A DNA stretch of 34,999 nucleotides from a bacterium (GTDB lineage: Bacteria > Spirochaetota > Spirochaetia > Treponematales > Rectinemataceae): assembly GCA_021779995.1 (NCBI GenBank), contig JAJXZP010000193.1, forward strand, positions 1 to 34,999, in the 5' to 3' direction. The notes beneath the pieces were generated by a model. The model did not search any database. It was not told where the DNA came from and saw nothing but the letters and a program-made list of their open reading frames with translations. Shown in pieces: positions 46 through 15,046 of this stretch. Positions within the stretch are counted from its first letter, which is position 1, and each line of letters begins with the position of its first letter. The translations under genes and the position numbers were made by a program.

Positions 46-2376
46 ATGAAGTTCACCGACGGCTACTGGGGCCTCAGGGAAGGCGTCCGTATCTCATCGC
101 CCGCGCAGGCGCTTGATGTCGAGCGGCGCGACGGCAGTCTCCTCGTCTTCGCGCCCTGCACGGCCATCCGCCACCGCGGCGACACCTTGAACGCTCCCCA
201 GCTCTCCTACCGCTTCAGCTCGCCCCTGCCCGGGGTGATCCGCGTCGAGATCGTCCACTGGAAGGGCGCGAAGGCGAAGGGGCCCGATTTCGAGGTCGCC
301 TCGCTTCCCGGCTTCGAGCCCGAGATCGAGATCGCAGCCGAGGAGGCGAGTCTCGTCTCGGGCGACACGCGCGTCACGGTGAGGCGGGGCGGCGAGTGGT
401 CCGTGGACTTCTTCAGCGCCGGCGACAGGATTACGGGTTCGGGACCCGGCCAGGCGGGGCACATCCTCGACCGCGACGGAAGCTTCATGCGCGAGCAGCT
501 GGACCTCGGCGTCGGCGAGTGCGTCTACGGGCTAGGCGAGCGCTTCACGCCCTTCGTCAAGAACGGCCAGGTCGTGGACATGTGGAACGAGGACGGAGGC
601 ACGAGTTCCGAGCAGGCCTACAAGAACGTCCCCTTCTACCTCTCCGACCGAGGCTACGGCGTGTTCGTGGCCCATCCGGAGCGCGTCTCCTTCGAAGTCG
701 GCTCCGAGGTCGTCTCGCGCGTGCAGTTCTCCGTGCCCGGCGAGCGGCTCGAGTACTACCTCATCGGCGGTTCCGGTCCCAAGGAGGTTTTGAGACGTTA
801 TGCGGCCCTGACGGGCAGGCCCGCCCTGCCGCCGCCCTGGTCCTTCGGGCTCTGGCTCACCACCTCCTTCACCACGAGCTACGACGAGGCCACGGTCAAT
901 TCCTTCATCGACGGCATGCGCGAGCGGGACATCCCGCTGCACGTCTTCCACTTCGACTGCTTCTGGATGCGCGAGTTCCAGTGGTGCGACTTCGCGTGGG
1001 ACAGGTGCCAGTTCCCCGACCCCGAGGCGATGCTGCGCCGCCTCAAGGCCAAGGGCCTCAGGATCTGCCTCTGGATCAACCCCTACATCGCCCAGAAATC
1101 CCCGCTCTTCGACGAGGGAATGGAGGCGGGCTATCTCCTGAGGCGCCCCGACGGCGGCGTCTGGCAGTGGGACCGCTGGCAGGCGGGCATGGGGCTCGTG
1201 GACTTCACCAACCCCGGGGCCGTGGCCTGGTTCAAGGAAAAACTGCGCCGACTCCTGCGCATGGGCGTGGATAGCTTCAAGACCGACTTCGGCGAGCGCA
1301 TCCCCGTCGACGTGGTCTACCACGACGGCTCGGAGCCCGAGCGCATGCACAACTACTACACCTACCTCTACAACAAGGCGGTCTTCGAGCTTCTGGAGGA
1401 GGAGCTGGGGCGCAACCGGGCCCTCCTTTTCGCGCGCTCGGCCACCGCGGGCAGCCAGAAGTTCCCGGTGCACTGGGGCGGGGACTGCTCGGCGACCTAC
1501 GAATCCATGGCCGAGACCCTGCGAGGCGGACTCTCGCTCGGCCTCTCGGGCTTCGGCTTCTGGAGCCACGACATCTCCGGCTTCGAGAAGACCGCGACCC
1601 CCGATCTCTACAAGCGCTGGGTGGCCTTCGGCCTTCTGTCCTCGCACTCGCGGCTCCACGGCAACGAGTCCTACCGCGTGCCCTGGCTCTTCGACGAGGA
1701 GGCGGTCGAGGTCCTGCGCTTCTTCGCGGCGCTCAAGTGCCGCCTCATGCCGTACATCTTCTCCCAGGCGGTCGAGGCCTCCCGGGAGGGCCTGCCCGTG
1801 ATGCGCGCGATGGCGCTCGAGTTCCCCGGCGACCCGGCCTGCTCCTACCTCGACCGGCAGTACCTGCTGGGCTCCTCGCTCCTCGTCGCGCCGATTTTCG
1901 CGGCCGACGGCTATGTGTCCTACTACCTCCCGGCCGGCCGCTGGACCAAGCTCCTCTCCAACGATCTGGTCGAGGGCGGGCGCTGGATCCGCGAGCGCCA
2001 CGACTACGTGAGTCTTCCCCTCATGGCCCGGCCGGGCTCCCTCATCCCCATGGGCGCCGACGGGACCAGGCCCGACTACGACTACGCGGCCGGCGTCGCC
2101 TTCCATCTCTTCGAGCTGGCCGAGGGAGAGACGGCCTCCGCGGCAGTGCACGGCGAGGAGGGCGAGCCGCGCCTCGAGTTGGGCGTCGCGCGCAGGGGCG
2201 GGCGGATCGAGGTCGAGGCCCGAGGGGCTGTCGCCGACTGGAGTCTCGTGCTGCGGAACCTGCGCTCGGTCGCCTCCGTCGCCGGCGGCAGGGCTGCGGC
2301 CGATCCCCTCGGACTCAGAATCCACGTCGCGGGGACGGGCGAGGCTGGTATCGTGCGTCTTGACATCCTGCTCTAG
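46..2376 (+). CDS. yicI: GH31 alpha-xylosidase, YicI-like
   Basis: A 776-residue glycoside hydrolase family 31 enzyme, predicted to release alpha-linked xylose from the non-reducing end of oligosaccharides such as xyloglucan fragments. No signal peptide is visible, so it should be cytoplasmic and act on imported sugars. The family layout is present: N-terminal beta-sandwich (about 1-245), (beta/alpha)8 barrel (about 255-590) and C-terminal beta domains. The nucleophile is Asp414 in FKTDFGERIP and the acid/base is Asp480 in HWGGDCSATYESM, almost the same numbering as E. coli YicI (416 and 482), and the length also matches. The start follows an AAGGGAG ribosome-binding site at 31-37. The FGERIP context favours xylosidase over alpha-glucosidase; exact substrate preference is inferred. 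No sugar transporter is seen downstream; one could lie upstream of the window. Confidence 0.93.
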   Translation: MKFTDGYWGLREGVRISSPAQALDVERRDGSLLVFAPCTAIRHRGDTLNAPQLSYRFSSPLPGVIRVEIVHWKGAKAKGPDFEVASLPGFEPEIEIAAEEASLVSGDTRVTVRRGGEWSVDFFSAGDRITGSGPGQAGHILDRDGSFMREQLDLGVGECVYGLGERFTPFVKNGQVVDMWNEDGGTSSEQAYKNVPFYLSDRGYGVFVAHPERVSFEVGSEVVSRVQFSVPGERLEYYLIGGSGPKEVLRRYAALTGRPALPPPWSFGLWLTTSFTTSYDEATVNSFIDGMRERDIPLHVFHFDCFWMREFQWCDFAWDRCQFPDPEAMLRRLKAKGLRICLWINPYIAQKSPLFDEGMEAGYLLRRPDGGVWQWDRWQAGMGLVDFTNPGAVAWFKEKLRRLLRMGVDSFKTDFGERIPVDVVYHDGSEPERMHNYYTYLYNKAVFELLEEELGRNRALLFARSATAGSQKFPVHWGGDCSATYESMAETLRGGLSLGLSGFGFWSHDISGFEKTATPDLYKRWVAFGLLSSHSRLHGNESYRVPWLFDEEAVEVLRFFAALKCRLMPYIFSQAVEASREGLPVMRAMALEFPGDPACSYLDRQYLLGSSLLVAPIFAADGYVSYYLPAGRWTKLLSNDLVEGGRWIRERHDYVSLPLMARPGSLIPMGADGTRPDYDYAAGVAFHLFELAEGETASAAVHGEEGEPRLELGVARRGGRIEVEARGAVADWSLVLRNLRSVASVAGGRAAADPLGLRIHVAGTGEAGIVRLDILL

Positions 2377-2687
2377 TCCGATCGCGCCCTTCCAGCCGAT
2401 TTTAGCCCGGACTCGCGAGCCCCTGCGGCCTGAAGTTCGCGGGTGATCAATCCTGAACACCTCGAACCAAGGTCGCGGCAGGGCAGACGTGCGCGCAACG
2501 CTTCCGCCCCGTCCACGACCCCGGTCCCCATGATCGTATCCCTCGCCGTAGCCTCTCCCCTGCCGGGCCGCGGGCCGGAATTCCCATCGGTCTTTCGCGG
2601 CTGGCTGAAAATCGCCAAGGATGCTAGGATTGAAAGCGCCGCATTGCAAACAGGCGCGGCCCATTCAACATCGTGCGGAGGCGTTCC
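2377..2687. other. intergenic region with a weak candidate promoter
   Basis: This 311-base gap between the xylosidase and the MFS transporter holds no convincing gene. The plus strand has a weak sigma70-like pair, TGGCTG at 2602-2607 and TAGGAT at 2625-2630 with a 17-base spacer, about 57 bases before the transporter start. No clear terminator follows the xylosidase stop; only a short CTCGCGAG palindrome is visible near 2412. Confidence 0.3.
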
Positions 2688-3935
2688 ATGGATGAGCAGG
2701 GAGTGAAAATCTACCCCTACCGCTGGGTGGTTCTCGCGGCGTTCATGCTGGTCAATGTCATGGTCCAGGTTCTGTGGATCTGCTACGCCCCCATCGCCTC
2801 CATCGCGGCCGCGGCCTATGGGGTGAGGCGGGACGACATCGATCTGCTCGCGAACCTTTTCATGCTTCTCTACATCCCGTTTTCCTTTCCGGCCGCCTGG
2901 GCCATCGATACCTTCGGGTTCAAGAAGGCGGTCGGCTTCGGGGCGACCCTCATGGCGGTGTTCGCGCTCGTGCGGGCCGTCTTCCCCTTCAGCTACGCGG
3001 CCGCGCTGGTCGGGGCGATCGGCATTTCCGTCGGGCAGCCCTTCCTGCTCAATGCCTTCACGAAACTGGCCGCCCGATGGTTTCCGCAGAAGCAGCGCGC
3101 GACCATCACCGGAGTCATCTTCCTGGCCCTGTTCGCCGGGATCGGACTGGGGGAGACGCTCAGCCCCGCCCTGGTGGCCTCCGCGGGCTTCGCGGGCATG
3201 CAGCTGATTTTCGGCGTTACGACGGCGGCCGTCGTCGCCCTCTTCCTCGTCTTCGCGAGGGCCGATCCCCCCACGCCCGCCAGCCCCGCGGGAGAGCAGC
3301 CCCGGGCTCTGGTGCTCGACGGCCTGCGGCAGATGCTCAAGGACCGCGACGTCTACCTGCTGTCCCTGGCCTTGTTCCTGGGCAGCGGCATCGTCAACGG
3401 CGTCTTCACCCTGATCGACGGCATAGATACGGAAAAATCGCTCACCGTGTCGCAGGGCGCCTTCCTCACGGCCGTCCTGCTCCTGGGCGGCATCGCGGGC
3501 AGCGTCGTGCTCCCCGCCGTCTCGGACGCGATCCGGCGGCGCAAGCCGCTCATCATCGCCGGCATCTTCATCTCCGTGCCCGCCACCTTCGGGCTCGCCC
3601 TGGGCAGGAACTACATCTTCGAGATCGTCAGCTTTTTCGTCATGGGATTCTGCATCACCGGGCTCACGCCCGTCGCCTACCAGTACGGCGCGGAGATCAC
3701 CCACCCGGCCCCCGAAGGCACGAGCAACGGCATCTTCGCCCTGGTGGTGCAGGCTTCGGGCTTCCTGATTCTCCTCATGGACGGGCTCAAGAACGCTTTC
3801 AGGAATTCCTACATGCCGTCCATCATGGGACTGGCGATCCTCCTGGCCGCGAGCGGGTTCCTGCTCATTTTCGTCAGGGAGTCTCCGGAAATGCATCGGC
3901 GCGCGGTGTCGATGCGGGAAGGGATCGACTCATAG
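2688..3935 (+). CDS. MFS transporter, FLVCR/DIRC2-like
   Basis: A 415-residue major facilitator superfamily permease with about 12 hydrophobic segments, starting near residue 12. The N-terminal stretch ([20 protein letters not shown]) and the following YAPI resemble the FLVCR-like branch of the family, whose characterised eukaryotic members move haem, choline or metabolites; the bacterial substrate cannot be read from sequence. A cytoplasmic loop of charged and Pro/Ala-rich residues (about 190-210) separates the two six-helix halves. The ATG at 2688 was chosen because a GGAGG-type site lies just before it; an in-frame GTG at 2673 would overlap that site. The gene is followed 42 bases later by the sensor kinase, but nothing links their functions beyond position. 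Confidence 0.8.
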
Positions 3936-9538: not shown

Positions 9539-11962
9539 CTACCAGGGGGCCGGGTAGAAATCTTCCACGTTGTCGGCGGTGATGAGCTTGACCGGAAGAT
9601 ACTTGATGGGGTTGAAGTCGATGCCGTTGAAGTAGTCCACCGCCATCGCGATCGGAAGAGCCCCGTCGGTCTCGGCCGGCTGGTAGGTCGTGGCGAGGAC
9701 CTTCCCTTCCTTGACGAGGTCGAGCGAGATCCGGCAGTGCCCCTGGGCCACGACGACGATGTCCTCCCTCCCCGTCTCCCGGAGCGCGTCGACGATGCCC
9801 TGGAGGGCCGAGCCCTGATCCGCGGAGACTATGCCGCCGAGCGAGCCCCCCCTTCGCGATATCCATTCCTTCACGACGGCCTTCGTCTTCGCGCGGTCGA
9901 ATTCCGTGTAGGCGCGCTCCAGGCAGGACATGCCGGGAGCGTAGGTCGCCAGCTCGGTGATCGGCGCGAAGGTCCGGGCGAAGTACGGACCCGAGCCGGG
10001 GACATGCTGCACGATGCCGTAGCCGCCGGACTTGCCCATGGCGTCGGCCAACGTGCGCGCGAGGAGCCTGAAGGAGCCCCACTCGTCGGTGCCCGTGTAG
10101 CCCAGGATGTAGGGAAAGGCCGCGGCGGACGGCATGTTCGTGCAGGCGATGATCGGGATCCCGGCGTCGTACACCGTGCGGATGAGGGCCTCGCTCCGGT
10201 CCACGTCGTTCGCCGCGAAGACCACGAGGTCCGCGCCCGAGCGGACCGCCTGGTCGATCTGCTCGGCCTGGACCCTGTCCGAGTCGGACTTGGGCAGGGG
10301 ATGGAGATCGAGCTCGAGGCCGAAGAAGGCCGCCGCCTTCTTCATGCCCGCGTTGTGCGCCAGATAGTAGGGGTGGAAGGCGGGATTCACGCTCGCTATG
10401 CGCCGGCCCCGGGCGCCCTCGGCTCCCGAGGCCGGCAGGGGAGCCTTCTTGACGCCCCAGCCCGCGTATTCGTAGTCGTGCCAGTGCCGCGCGTCGGTCT
10501 CGGCCAGGGACTCGGGGCGGCCGGGGCGCGGCGGCGCCGACTTCCGCCCCTCGTCCCAGACGAGAAGGCTCTGCCCGTCGTTCGACCTCAGGCCCGAAGC
10601 GTCGAAGGTGACGAACTGGGCCAGGTCGGCCTCGAGTCCCTCGATGTTCCGCAGATTCTCCTTGCCCAGCTCGCGGATGACGCCCGAGGCCTGCAGCAGA
10701 TCGTTCACCGCCTCGCCCACCTCCTCCATGGAGGAAGCGTTCTGCGTGGACAATCCCGCCACCGTGCGCATCGAGGCCTCGATGCGGTTCGATTCGACGT
10801 CGATGCTTCTCGCCGAGGATTGGACCTTGCCCGTCGCCTCCGAGAGCTCGCCGAGGGAGGCAGTTATCTGCTTGCTGCCCAGGCGCATCTCGTCGAGCCC
10901 GGAGATGATCTCGGCCACCCCTCCGGCCACGTCGGCTATGGTTTCGGTCATGGAGCGGACCGACGAGGAGGCGTGGACGGCCGATTCGTGGGCTTCATGG
11001 ATGCGGCCGATCGTGCCGTGGAGATTCGCCGCGATTTCCTTCGACTTGACGGCGGTCGTCTCGGCCAGCCTCCGAATCTCGTCGGCGACCACGCCGAAGC
11101 CCTTGCCGTACTCCCCCGCGTGGGCCGCCTCAATGGCGGCGTTCATGGCGAGGAGATTGGTCTGGCTCGCGACATCCTGGATGACGCCGGCCGACTCGGC
11201 GATCGTGTCGGCCGCGTCGGAGATGGCCCGCATCTCCTCGAGGCTCCGGTCCATGTCGGCCATCCCCGTCTGGGCCCGCTCGGACAGGGCCTCGATCGAT
11301 CGTCCTCTTCCCCTGGACACCTCGGCTATGCTCTGGATCGAGGCGATCATCTCCTCCACCGCGCTCGACGAGCTGGCCACCGCGGAGCCCTGGGTCTCGA
11401 TCTGGCCGACGACCTCGCGGATGGCGGTCCTGATCGACTCCACCGCCCCCTCGGCCGCGGCGATATCCCGGCGCAGGAACTCGCTGTTGCCCTTCATGCT
11501 GCCGACGCTCGCCGCGATCTGCTCGGTGGCCGAGGCGAGCTCGGAGGCGCCCGACTCCAGACGGCCGCTCGTGCTCCTCGTCGAGGCGTTGAGCAGCTTC
11601 ATGCGCATGATCAGGTTGTGGATGTTGGCGATGAAGATGGTGATACCCCGGGAGAGGGGCCCCACCAGCGTGTCGCGGCCGATTTTCAGGCGCTTGGTGA
11701 GATCCTTCTCGCCCGAGGCGAGGGCCTCGACCGGAGCGGAGACTTCCCCGACGCGCGTTCCCACCGTCCGCATCATGACGGCGACGCTGCACGCGGCGGG
11801 AACCAGGGCGAGGATGAGGGCGAGGGCCGGCAGCCCGAGGGCGCTTTCGATGAAGCCGAGGGCGCCGAGGGCCCAGGCTGCGATGACGAGCGCCGCGGTC
11901 AGGGCGAGGGGTGCGAGCGCCGAAAAGACCAGGCGCCGGGCTCGTTTGCTTGTCGATGCCAT
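9539..11962 (-). CDS. methyl-accepting chemotaxis protein fused to a periplasmic-binding-protein-like sugar-binding domain
   Basis: An 807-residue fusion. Two hydrophobic segments (about 12-35 and 39-64) are joined by a very short loop, leaving almost no periplasmic sensor. A HAMP-like segment (about 65-120) and a full MCP signalling coiled coil (about 125-450) follow; the hairpin tip [20 protein letters not shown] and the following [12 protein letters not shown] are canonical. After a linker (about 455-515), residues about 520-807 form a type I periplasmic-binding-protein (RbsB-like, Peripla_BP_4) domain: [32 protein letters not shown], then PIIACTNMP and a [10 protein letters not shown] segment. 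With two membrane helices and a cytoplasmic signalling domain, this binding domain should be inside the cell. The ATG at 11962 is preferred; an in-frame TTG at 12007 would add 15 residues. Likely role: chemotaxis to an intracellular sugar or sugar-like ligand. Confidence 0.85.
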
Positions 11963-12133
11963 AAATTCGCTATGATCATCCCGCTTTCCCAAACAGTAAA
12001 TGGGCAAAAGTCCGGGTGTGATGCAGAAAAGGTCGCAGCGCCGCCGTTCGCCCTTGCGTTCCGCGGATGTTTCGAGGAGGCGACGCTCAAAGGGCGCGGT
12101 TTCTTCACCTCGATCGAATATTCCAAAAAATGC

Positions 12134-12169: not shown

Positions 12170-12412
12170 ATGGATAGCGTAATGGAAATCGGGGCCTTCG
12201 AGGCCAAGACCCGTTTCTCCGAGCTTCTCGAAACGGTCCGCGGGGGCCGGGAAATTATCGTCACGCGAAGGGGGGAGCCCATGGCCCGCATTGTGCCTAT
12301 CGGCGATAAAAAGGAAGAGATAGCCCTCCTTCTCAGGGAGTTCGAGGACATACGTGCGGGAGCTCGGCCCGGTCCTTCCATTCGCGCCCTCATCGAGGAA
12401 GGTCGTCGATGA
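12170..12412 (+). CDS. type II antitoxin, Phd/YefM family
   Basis: An 80-residue Phd/YefM-family antitoxin. The N-terminal DNA-binding and dimerisation fold is seen in GAFEAKTRFSELLETVRGG and in REIIVTRRGEPMARIVPI; the C-terminal tail (REFEDIRAGARPGPSIRALI) is the flexible part that should wrap and block the toxin. Its last four bases (ATGA) overlap the toxin start, so translation is coupled. A second in-frame ATG at 12182 is equally plausible and would remove four residues. It should repress its own operon through the palindrome at 12148-12164. Confidence 0.88.
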   Translation: MDSVMEIGAFEAKTRFSELLETVRGGREIIVTRRGEPMARIVPIGDKKEEIALLLREFEDIRAGARPGPSIRALIEEGRR

Positions 12413-12822
12413 GCTTCGTCCTCGACGCGAGCGTCGCGGCGAGCCTCTTTCTCCCCGACGAGGAGAGTGAGACGGCAAGGTCGATACTGGGCGGGGCCGG
12501 AGGCAGCATCCTCGTCCCGACCCTGTTCTGGTACGAGATGGCCAGCATTCTGTCGGCCAGCGTTCGGAAGGGCAGGCTGGGCGAAGGCCCGGCCTTCAGG
12601 GCTCTCGAGATGCTGCGCAGGCTCGGCTTGAAGGTCGATGCCCGCCCCATCGAAGAACTCCTGCCTGCTATCTTCATGCTGTCGCGGGAGCACGAGCTTT
12701 CGTCGTACGACTCGGCGTATCTCGAACTGGCCGCGCGCGAGGGCGCGACTCTCTGCAGCCACGATGGGGAATTGCGGGCGGCCGCGAAAAAGATAGGCCT
12801 TTCGCTGCTTCCCGCCGCGTGA
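12409..12822 (+). CDS. vapC: PIN-domain ribonuclease toxin, VapC family
   Basis: A 137-residue PIN-domain toxin, expected to be an Mg/Mn-dependent ribonuclease held inactive by the upstream antitoxin. The acidic active site is complete: Asp6 in FVLDAS, Glu43 in WYEMAS, Asp101 in SYDSAYLELA and Asp119 in SHDGEL. The length is normal. The start overlaps the antitoxin stop by four bases. Pairing a Phd-type antitoxin with a VapC toxin is common. The module sits next to duplicated tRNA 3'-end sequence (12.8-13.2 kb), which fits acquisition as part of a mobile or laterally transferred segment, though no integrase is present. Confidence 0.9.
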   Translation: MSFVLDASVAASLFLPDEESETARSILGGAGGSILVPTLFWYEMASILSASVRKGRLGEGPAFRALEMLRRLGLKVDARPIEELLPAIFMLSREHELSSYDSAYLELAAREGATLCSHDGELRAAAKKIGLSLLPAA

Positions 12823-13344: not shown

Positions 13345-13989
13345 CTATTTTTTCCGCCGCGAGTTCACGAACCTGATGAAGTCGTTGATGTTCTTGACGA
13401 CGATGCGGTCGGGGTACACTTCCAGGCGGCGCTGATTGGCGAAGTGATTGAGTATGGTCTGGACTTCGGTGTCCGACATGCCGGCCCAATGCGAGACGTC
13501 CTCCATCGTCACCTTGAACTCGCGTTTTTCGCCGTCCTGCTCGCCGCCCGACACTGCGGCGTTGGTCTCGTAGAGCATGAGGAAGACGTCGGCGATGCGG
13601 GCCTGGGGATCGTCGAGGGTGAGGATCATGAAGCGGCGCTTCTGGTCCCAGATGCGCTTGGTGAAGAGCTTGAGGAGCCTGAGCGCGATCTGGGGGTTGC
13701 CCATCATGAGCACCTCGAAGTTTGCGCGGTTGAACTCGAGCACCTTGACCGTGTCGATGGCCTGGGCCGTGGCGGAGCGGGGCGCGCCTTCGAGGATGGC
13801 CATCTCGCCGAAGATCTCGGGGGGCTGGAGGATGTCGATGGTCTTCTCGAGCTCGCCGACGATCTTCGAGATCTTCACCCGGCCGCCCTGGATGAGGTAG
13901 AAGCTGTCGCCGGGCTCGTACTCGGCGAAGATGAGCTCGCCCGGCTGGTAGGTCCGCGCGAAGCGGGTGAAGGCTGCCAAATCAGCCAT
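13345..13989 (-). CDS. Crp/Fnr-like cyclic-nucleotide-binding protein
   Basis: A 214-residue protein with an N-terminal cNMP-binding beta-roll: YQPGELIFAEYEPGDSFYLI, then a phosphate-binding-cassette-like segment PPEIFGEMAILEGAPRSATA. A long dimer helix follows, then a C-terminal winged-helix region (TMEDVSHWAGMSDTEVQTIL and a short wing), so it is probably a transcription regulator of the Crp/Fnr superfamily. No Fe-S cysteines are present. Its start overlaps the end of the cNMP/TPR gene by 8 bases and has a GAGGGGGG ribosome-binding site, so the two are co-translated and may act together. Ligand and targets unknown. A divergent fold assignment for the C terminus cannot be excluded. Confidence 0.85.
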   Translation of the reverse strand: MADLAAFTRFARTYQPGELIFAEYEPGDSFYLIQGGRVKISKIVGELEKTIDILQPPEIFGEMAILEGAPRSATAQAIDTVKVLEFNRANFEVLMMGNPQIALRLLKLFTKRIWDQKRRFMILTLDDPQARIADVFLMLYETNAAVSGGEQDGEKREFKVTMEDVSHWAGMSDTEVQTILNHFANQRRLEVYPDRIVVKNINDFIRFVNSRRKK

Positions 13990-15046
13990 GCTTGCCCCCC
14001 TCGAGCTGGCGGAGCGACCTGGTGGCCTTGATCCGCGTCGACGCGTCCTCGTCGTTTTCCATCGAGAGAATTTTCTTGTAGAAGCCCTTGGCCCGCTCCG
14101 CGTCGCCCTTGCGCTCGTAGGACTGTCCGAGCCAGTAGAGCGTGTCGATGAGGTCGGGGTGCTTGGGGTAGGTCTGCACCAGCTGGGTGAAGTGCTTGAT
14201 GGTGAGGTCGTACTGCTGGAGCATGTAGAGGCACCTTCCCATGTCGTAGAGAGCCTTCATGGTGTATTCGGGATCCTCGTTGGCCTCGACGATGCGCTTG
14301 AAGCCGGCGAGGGCCTCCTTGTAGCGCTCCGAGCTGAAGAGGCTCACCGCGTCGTAGTAGTCCTTGGCCGCGCCGGAGAGCGTGTCGCCGGGCGCCCGCT
14401 GGGCGGGCGGCACGGAGGCCACGAGCTCCTCGGCGCTCTCGGCCGTGGCGCGGCCGGTGCGGGCGGAGGCCTCGGCGACGAGGGGAGCGGGACCCCTGCC
14501 GTCGCCGTACTTGACCGATCCCGCCTCGGCCATCTCGAGATAGCGGCTTGCCTGCTCGGCCAGCTTGCCCGCCGGGTAGTAGGTCAGGTAGCGGCTGAAG
14601 ACGTACTTGCCCTGGGAGTACTGCCTGCTCTTGAGGTAGTACTCGCCGGCCTTGAACAGTCCGTACTCCGGGCTCTGGGCTTCGGATTTCTCGAGCAGGT
14701 TCTCGACCTGCTTGTGCACCCGCCTGAGCTGGTTCGAGAAGACCTTGAGCATCTTCATGATGATGCGGGTGTTCGCCTGGGCGAAGACTTCGAACTCGGG
14801 CACGTTGAAGACGAGGACCTGGGCGTCGGAGAGCACGAGGGCGTTCTCCTCCCGCGGATATTTCCCCAGGGCGCTCTTGACGCCGAAGAACTCGCCCGTC
14901 TGTATGACCTCGCGCGTCTCCTTGCCGGTCTCGATGTCGGCGTAGTTGAGGCTCACCTTCCCCGATTGGAGAATGAAGACCTTGTCGCTCACATCTCCCT
15001 GGAAGTAGATCACCGAGTTGGCGCGGTAGCTTCCTACCTTAGGCAT
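13982..15046 (-). CDS. cyclic-nucleotide-binding protein with TPR repeats
   Basis: A 354-residue protein with an N-terminal cNMP-binding domain (about 1-130; SYRANSVIYFQGDVSDKVFI, TGEFFGVKSALGKYPREE), a coiled linker, and TPR-like helical repeats (about 125-170 and 225-345; e.g. YYLKSRQYSQGKYVFSRYL, LYDMGRCLYMLQQYDLTIKH, and a YWLGQSYERKGDAERAKGFY repeat of YbgF/BamD type). There is no DNA-binding domain and no signal peptide, so it is likely a cytoplasmic adaptor that couples nucleotide binding to protein-protein contacts. From memory, cNMP-TPR proteins next to a Crp-like gene recur in spirochaetes, which supports the proposed host. The start has GGGAG upstream. Confidence 0.82.
   Translation of the reverse strand: MPKVGSYRANSVIYFQGDVSDKVFILQSGKVSLNYADIETGKETREVIQTGEFFGVKSALGKYPREENALVLSDAQVLVFNVPEFEVFAQANTRIIMKMLKVFSNQLRRVHKQVENLLEKSEAQSPEYGLFKAGEYYLKSRQYSQGKYVFSRYLTYYPAGKLAEQASRYLEMAEAGSVKYGDGRGPAPLVAEASARTGRATAESAEELVASVPPAQRAPGDTLSGAAKDYYDAVSLFSSERYKEALAGFKRIVEANEDPEYTMKALYDMGRCLYMLQQYDLTIKHFTQLVQTYPKHPDLIDTLYWLGQSYERKGDAERAKGFYKKILSMENDEDASTRIKATRSLRQLEGGKHG

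Follow-up and report, generated by a model that had tools for sequence, protein, structure and literature searches.

Sugar taxis that relies on binding proteins senses the sugar outside the cell, and the locus described here raises the question of what a sugar-binding protein is doing at the far end of a chemoreceptor, and on which side of the membrane it works. The gene lies in a 34,999-nucleotide stretch of a spirochaete genome of the family Rectinemataceae (contig JAJXZP010000193.1, positions 1 to 34,999; hereafter the window). An earlier note, made from the letters alone, had described it as a chemoreceptor with a sugar-binding-protein domain fused to its C terminus, and this description was confirmed by Pfam, by the fold model, by the topology and by the homologues. 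The architecture, the fold and the topology were computed here from the sequence, as were the recurrence of the fusion and the kinship of its last domain to the binding protein of a transporter. On this basis we consider it likely that the protein is a membrane-anchored MCP that senses with a class I sugar-binding domain attached covalently on the cytoplasmic side, and that this sensor would read an imported sugar or a close derivative of it.

The receptor gene is an uninterrupted open reading frame on the minus strand (Table 1), with strong coding composition (GC3 0.90) and an alternative, in-frame TTG start at position 12007; a gene on the plus strand of 9539-11962 was rejected, as there was no sign of one there. 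In agreement with the earlier account of two close membrane helices with almost no periplasmic loop, the two hydrophobic segments are joined by only ~16 residues, and a hydropathy scan of the whole protein found no third membrane segment after residue 64 and no signal peptide ahead of the binding domain. The HAMP-like segment proposed for the region that follows holds by alignment: Pfam calls HAMP in seven of ten aligned homologous fusions, and the region of the window protein aligns with theirs, though Pfam makes no such call in the window protein itself. The full MCP hairpin, likewise proposed from the start, is borne out by the MCPsignal match and by an alignment that pairs equal lengths of the protein and of E. 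coli Tsr (residues 138-379 against 245-486); because the spans are equal, the hairpin is predicted to belong to the 36H length class (Tsr-like, without net insertions or deletions). Its tip motif is nearly invariant across ten aligned MCP fusions, and the full-length AlphaFold2 model, which is of only moderate confidence (mean pLDDT 76, from 10 sequences), runs from the helix pair through helices 101-281 and 283-447 to the binding domain. With this hairpin, the tip motif, two predicted methylation sites and a genome that gave six CheR and five CheB matches (besides ~30 MCP-type matches), the protein is predicted to be a methyl-accepting chemotaxis protein. Its C terminus lacks a CheR pentapeptide (aromatic, of the NWETF type present in Tsr), as had been observed before; it ends in ...FYPAPW, inside the binding domain and at the point where the fold ends in secreted relatives.

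Table 1. Features of the receptor gene and its product, with positions in the window.
Feature	Residues	Position	Strand	Basis or detail
Whole gene, chemoreceptor with C-terminal binding-protein domain	807 aa	9539..11962	-	uninterrupted ORF and Pfam domains
Membrane helix 1	11-29	11876..11932	-	hydropathy 2.33; helix in AF2 model; KRARR before it (N terminus inside)
Membrane helix 2	46-64	11771..11827	-	hydropathy 2.47; helix in AF2 model
HAMP-like segment (GEKDLTKRL)	~65-118	11609..11770	-	aligned with homologues having Pfam HAMP
Long cytoplasmic helical hairpin	101-447	10622..11662	-	AF2 helices 101-281 and 283-447
Second methylation-type consensus	143-152	11507..11536	-	pattern match
Methylation-site consensus	199-208	11339..11368	-	pattern match
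MCPsignal domain with tip motif	227-381	10820..11284	-	Pfam 1.8e-30
Linker, DGQ.L...PPRP..P....TD.RHWxDxEYAGW	447-520	10403..10624	-	corresponds to mature N terminus of secreted relatives
Class I periplasmic-binding-protein fold	521-807	9542..10402	-	Peripla_BP_4; model pLDDT 94.5; Foldseek

The earlier note had proposed a domain search and a structure prediction for the C-terminal part, which it took to be about 290 residues of an RbsB-like fold. Both were run, and the fold stands: Pfam matched Peripla_BP_4 at residues 530-780 (1.2e-28) in addition to MCPsignal, the AlphaFold2 model of the domain, built from 57 sequences, is RbsB-like with the mean pLDDT given in Table 1, its target-normalised TM-scores against RbsB-like structures reach ~0.9 in Foldseek, and the first matches in a PDB profile search were 4yo7, 7e7m and 2ioy. 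The length, however, had been put too low. Because residues 447-520 match the mature N terminus of secreted relatives, the binding-domain unit starts near residue 447 and spans ~360 residues (447-807).

Relatives were searched in the class (395 genomes, 37 of which gave a match at 1e-40 or better), in the order and the family, and among GTDB contigs (70 loci), and 105 distinct domains of sufficient length formed the tree set. The family occurs there in four settings, namely as free secreted proteins of ~400 aa (47 domains), in fusions behind a CUT2 permease (15 clear and 4 unclear), in N-terminal fusions to AraC HTH domains (23, with a Pfam check on one) and in fusions behind an MCP (15 intact and one degenerate), so that the same receptor type is found in at least 15 genomes. 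The degenerate homologue (L071 2607-4460 (+), same as L140; 617 aa) has two membrane helices, a HAMP-like segment and the binding domain, with no recognisable MCP hairpin tip; it may be a receptor that lacks any known output, or else a degenerate copy.

We then consider the ligand pocket, which was mapped onto the contact positions of RbsB and 2ioy using the contact residues of RbsB (D89, R90, D215 and others). The window domain keeps the anchor residues H530, Y532, R663 (the equivalent of the RbsB-type R141), D715, G741 and Q761. Three positions differ from the exported forms: T608, T625 and Q740 stand where N, P and A, respectively, are found in 66 of 66 exported domains. The pocket residues N, P, R, D and Q are almost fully kept in the AraC fusions, and the pocket is more relaxed in MCP fusions than in either exported or AraC forms. 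The AraC regulators, by these residues, probably read the transported compound; the MCP fusions may be freer in their ligand, and since three exported-invariant residues are changed, the compound read by the window receptor may be a related one, perhaps not the transported one itself. Ribose was rejected as the ligand, as the D89, R90 and D215 positions of RbsB read T608, N609 and G741. The idea that the receptor shares the transporter's exact ligand was not upheld, given the three changed residues and given that only two of 15 receptors were seen beside the transporter. The earlier suggestion of an intracellular sugar or sugar phosphate is retained for the sugar, which is inferred from fold, family and operon link, but found no specific support for the phosphate.

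The same changes invite the reading, which we regard as unlikely, that the domain plays no part in sensing and is either vestigial or structural. The branch of the window domain is long (about 1 change per site), positions invariant in exported forms have changed, and the homologue L071/L140 has lost its MCP hairpin signature; yet 15 divergent receptors keep the domain at full length without stops or large gaps, the fold is predicted with high confidence, and at the conserved columns of the exported consensus the window domain is 72% identical to it, a value inside the range seen in the AraC group and the other MCP groups.

A cytoplasmic sensor would work as follows, in a scheme in which we infer ligand binding, the direction of the signal, the identity of the ligand and the coupling route, and whose steps after ligand binding are modelled on known MCPs. 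The two membrane helices would form an anchor with almost nothing outside. The returning hairpin helix almost matches the outgoing one in length and would thereby place the binding domain close to the membrane again, next to HAMP. There an imported sugar or derivative would bind and the Venus-flytrap domain would close; closure would shift the returning helix at its base, together with the linker (residues 447-520), altering the packing at the base of the hairpin and, with it, CheA activity. CheR and CheB would adapt the receptor at conserved glutamates, and these spirochaetes would probably steer by sugar that the CUT2 ABC transporter has already imported.

The link to a transporter comes from two genomes of the same family as the window, G025 and G049, in which an MCP fusion starts 72 and 80 bp, respectively, downstream of a secreted binding-protein gene, on the same strand and at the end of a CUT2 operon. 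The operon of G025 holds rhaM, URO-D genes, an ATPase and two permeases, and in G049 the contig stops after one permease. The genome of the window has the same transporter genes, split over the ends of two contigs, with the URO-D genes, ATPase and permeases on one (C161) and the secreted binding protein on the other (C322). Such an operon was seen beside only 2 of the 15 receptors, and the window's own copy stands alone, with Crp-type regulators and a toxin-antitoxin pair nearby. This scarcity counts against the cytoplasmic-sensor reading, as do the changes at T608, T625 and Q740 and the moderate full-length model. Proximity to the membrane and to transporter genes might also mean that the C-terminal domain binds the sugar permease or its ATPase from the cytoplasmic side and reports transport as an energy or flux sensor: the model would place the domain close to the membrane-facing end of the hairpin, receptor and transporter genes adjoin in the two genomes above, and the pocket of MCP fusions is relaxed. 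We hold this to be quite improbable, as most pocket anchor residues are kept and permeases receive their binding proteins on the outer face.

The topology of the relatives differs with their architecture. Nearly all complete free binding proteins carry an N-terminal hydrophobic segment (signal peptide), and the clear permease fusions have an extra membrane helix ~20-60 residues ahead of the binding domain. AraC fusions have neither an N-terminal nor a linker helix, and in MCP fusions two helices lie far upstream of the binding domain (or one is visible, at a contig edge). Two MCP fusions, L044 and L094, have no membrane helix whatsoever; these and the soluble AraC regulators with the same domain count toward cytoplasmic sensing. 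In the window protein, neither a membrane helix nor an obvious export signal was found between hairpin and binding domain, where the earlier note had named a helix or a cleavage site as the feature that would speak against it. Because no membrane segment follows residue 64, the domain is predicted to be a sensor rather than a transport binding protein. Almost all relatives that are not fused to a regulator are exported, but a binding domain outside the cell, on a receptor of unusual topology, is very improbable and was rejected: no membrane helix lies beyond residue 64, CheA and CheW can be reached only by an MCP hairpin on the cytoplasmic side, and the permease-fused relatives, which are necessarily outside, have their extra helix just ahead of the domain.

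Fragmented as the source assembly is (334 contigs), it is hardly credible that two genes were joined through a missed stop or an assembly error, an objection that the earlier note had raised together with a search for the same architecture in related genomes, because that search gave 14 further intact genes in other genomes with the same join, and because the window protein, in its MCP half, most resembles the MCP halves of other fusions (best matches 246-204 bits), against 173 bits for the top match among other receptors found in the same genome as the window.

In the unrooted tree of the 105 domains, the exported domains are split from the AraC and MCP domains with full support (100/100); a single group holds the AraC domains (96/75), with the MCP domains placed in between. 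When three PDB binding proteins were used as an outgroup, AraC and MCP domains formed one clade (87/99, not starred), with the root next to the exported forms, and a single MCP clade was not rejected (AU p 0.357). Together with a topology that differs by architecture as predicted, this grouping upholds the central claim of the earlier note, that a binding protein has been internalised as a covalent cytoplasmic sensor, and the trees would fit one internalisation and one or few fusion events. MCP and AraC fusions were found only in Spirochaetota, except for L094, which is labelled Clostridia yet has as its sister a genome from the same class as the window. Tentatively, and as a possibility that falls somewhat short of probable, we suggest that in Spirochaetota a sugar-binding protein was internalised once and then given two outputs (AraC gene control and MCP steering), so that exported protein, regulator and chemoreceptor would between them cover both sides of the membrane for one sugar or for related ones. 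Three MCPs with a large inter-helix region as well as a C-terminal binding domain (L065 3616-6792 (+), L069 5093-7933 (-) and L070 9312-12158 (-)) could, by their predicted layout, sense on both sides and compare outside with inside in one receptor.

Several known systems share parts of this arrangement. The window domain has the fold, the Pfam family, the R141-type arginine and the Q235-type glutamine in common with CUT2 binding proteins (RbsB, TtRBP 2ioy, 4yo7), but it has no signal peptide, is not free and has the ribose-specific residues replaced as described above. E. coli Trg, in which the same binding-protein fold is linked to a sugar chemoreceptor (a system cited in PMC9602780), contacts a separate periplasmic ribose- or galactose-binding protein outside the cell, whereas the binding protein here is covalent and inside. 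XylR-type AraC regulators use a class I binding-protein domain as a cytoplasmic sugar sensor and resemble in this the 23 sister AraC fusions, in which the domain is N-terminal; their output, however, is DNA binding and not chemotaxis. Solute-binding-protein (SBP) domains are also used as the sensory part of receptors, both cytosolic and membrane-bound, and the Peripla_BP_4 proteins of the set analysed in the same paper bind xylose, rhamnose and ribose (PMC9602780). The accessible part of another report describes a poorly characterised subfamily of chemoreceptors with the ligand-binding domain in a C-terminal extension, comprising at least 17 Pfam domain types (PMC7390727). In the members described there (e.g. 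the CZB class), the sensor likewise follows the MCP hairpin in the cytoplasm, and the window receptor has its sensor after the signalling domain with no membrane helix between; the difference is that its sensor is an RbsB-type sugar-binding protein. C-terminal chemoreceptor sensors are thus already known as a class, and a literature search of partial coverage found no paper describing a cytoplasmic RbsB-type domain on a chemoreceptor.

In the window receptor the same domain would act from within the cell, adjoining the signalling hairpin, as a built-in sensor. Relatives that are secreted or that regulate transcription have been preserved and are natural controls, with which metabolism-linked (inside) and environment-linked (outside) sensing could be compared within one domain family, and the domain might serve as a modular sugar sensor for work on chemotaxis in laboratory strains. 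The sensor could also lead to the substrate of a recurring cluster (L072, L073, L074, L061, L075 and L076) of a rhaM-type mutarotase, two to three URO-D-family proteins, a CUT2 transporter and an AraC-binding-protein regulator. The URO-D proteins suggest methyl transfer, on which ground methylated sugars are our guess for that substrate; no paper combining rhaM, URO-D and an ABC cluster was found in the same partial literature search. Near the operon, L073 13153-14451 and L061 5045-6364 gave no Pfam match and are distant relatives of each other (26% identity).

In L082, L085, L107, L108, L110, L117 and others of the permease fusions, a single polypeptide combines a CUT2 permease with one additional membrane helix and the binding protein; these fusions come from Planctomycetota, Hydrogenedentota, Armatimonadota and Verrucomicrobiota. 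In the window, a gene for a Phd-like antitoxin (80 aa) overlaps that of a PIN-domain toxin; the pair lies immediately upstream of the receptor gene, on the opposite strand (12170-12822 (+)), and is followed by the genes of two adjoining cyclic-nucleotide-binding proteins (13345-15046 (-)), one Crp-like with an HTH and the other with TPR repeats. A GH31 glycosidase gene and then an MFS transporter gene, possibly a sugar uptake pair, lie a few kb from the receptor (46-3935 (+)).
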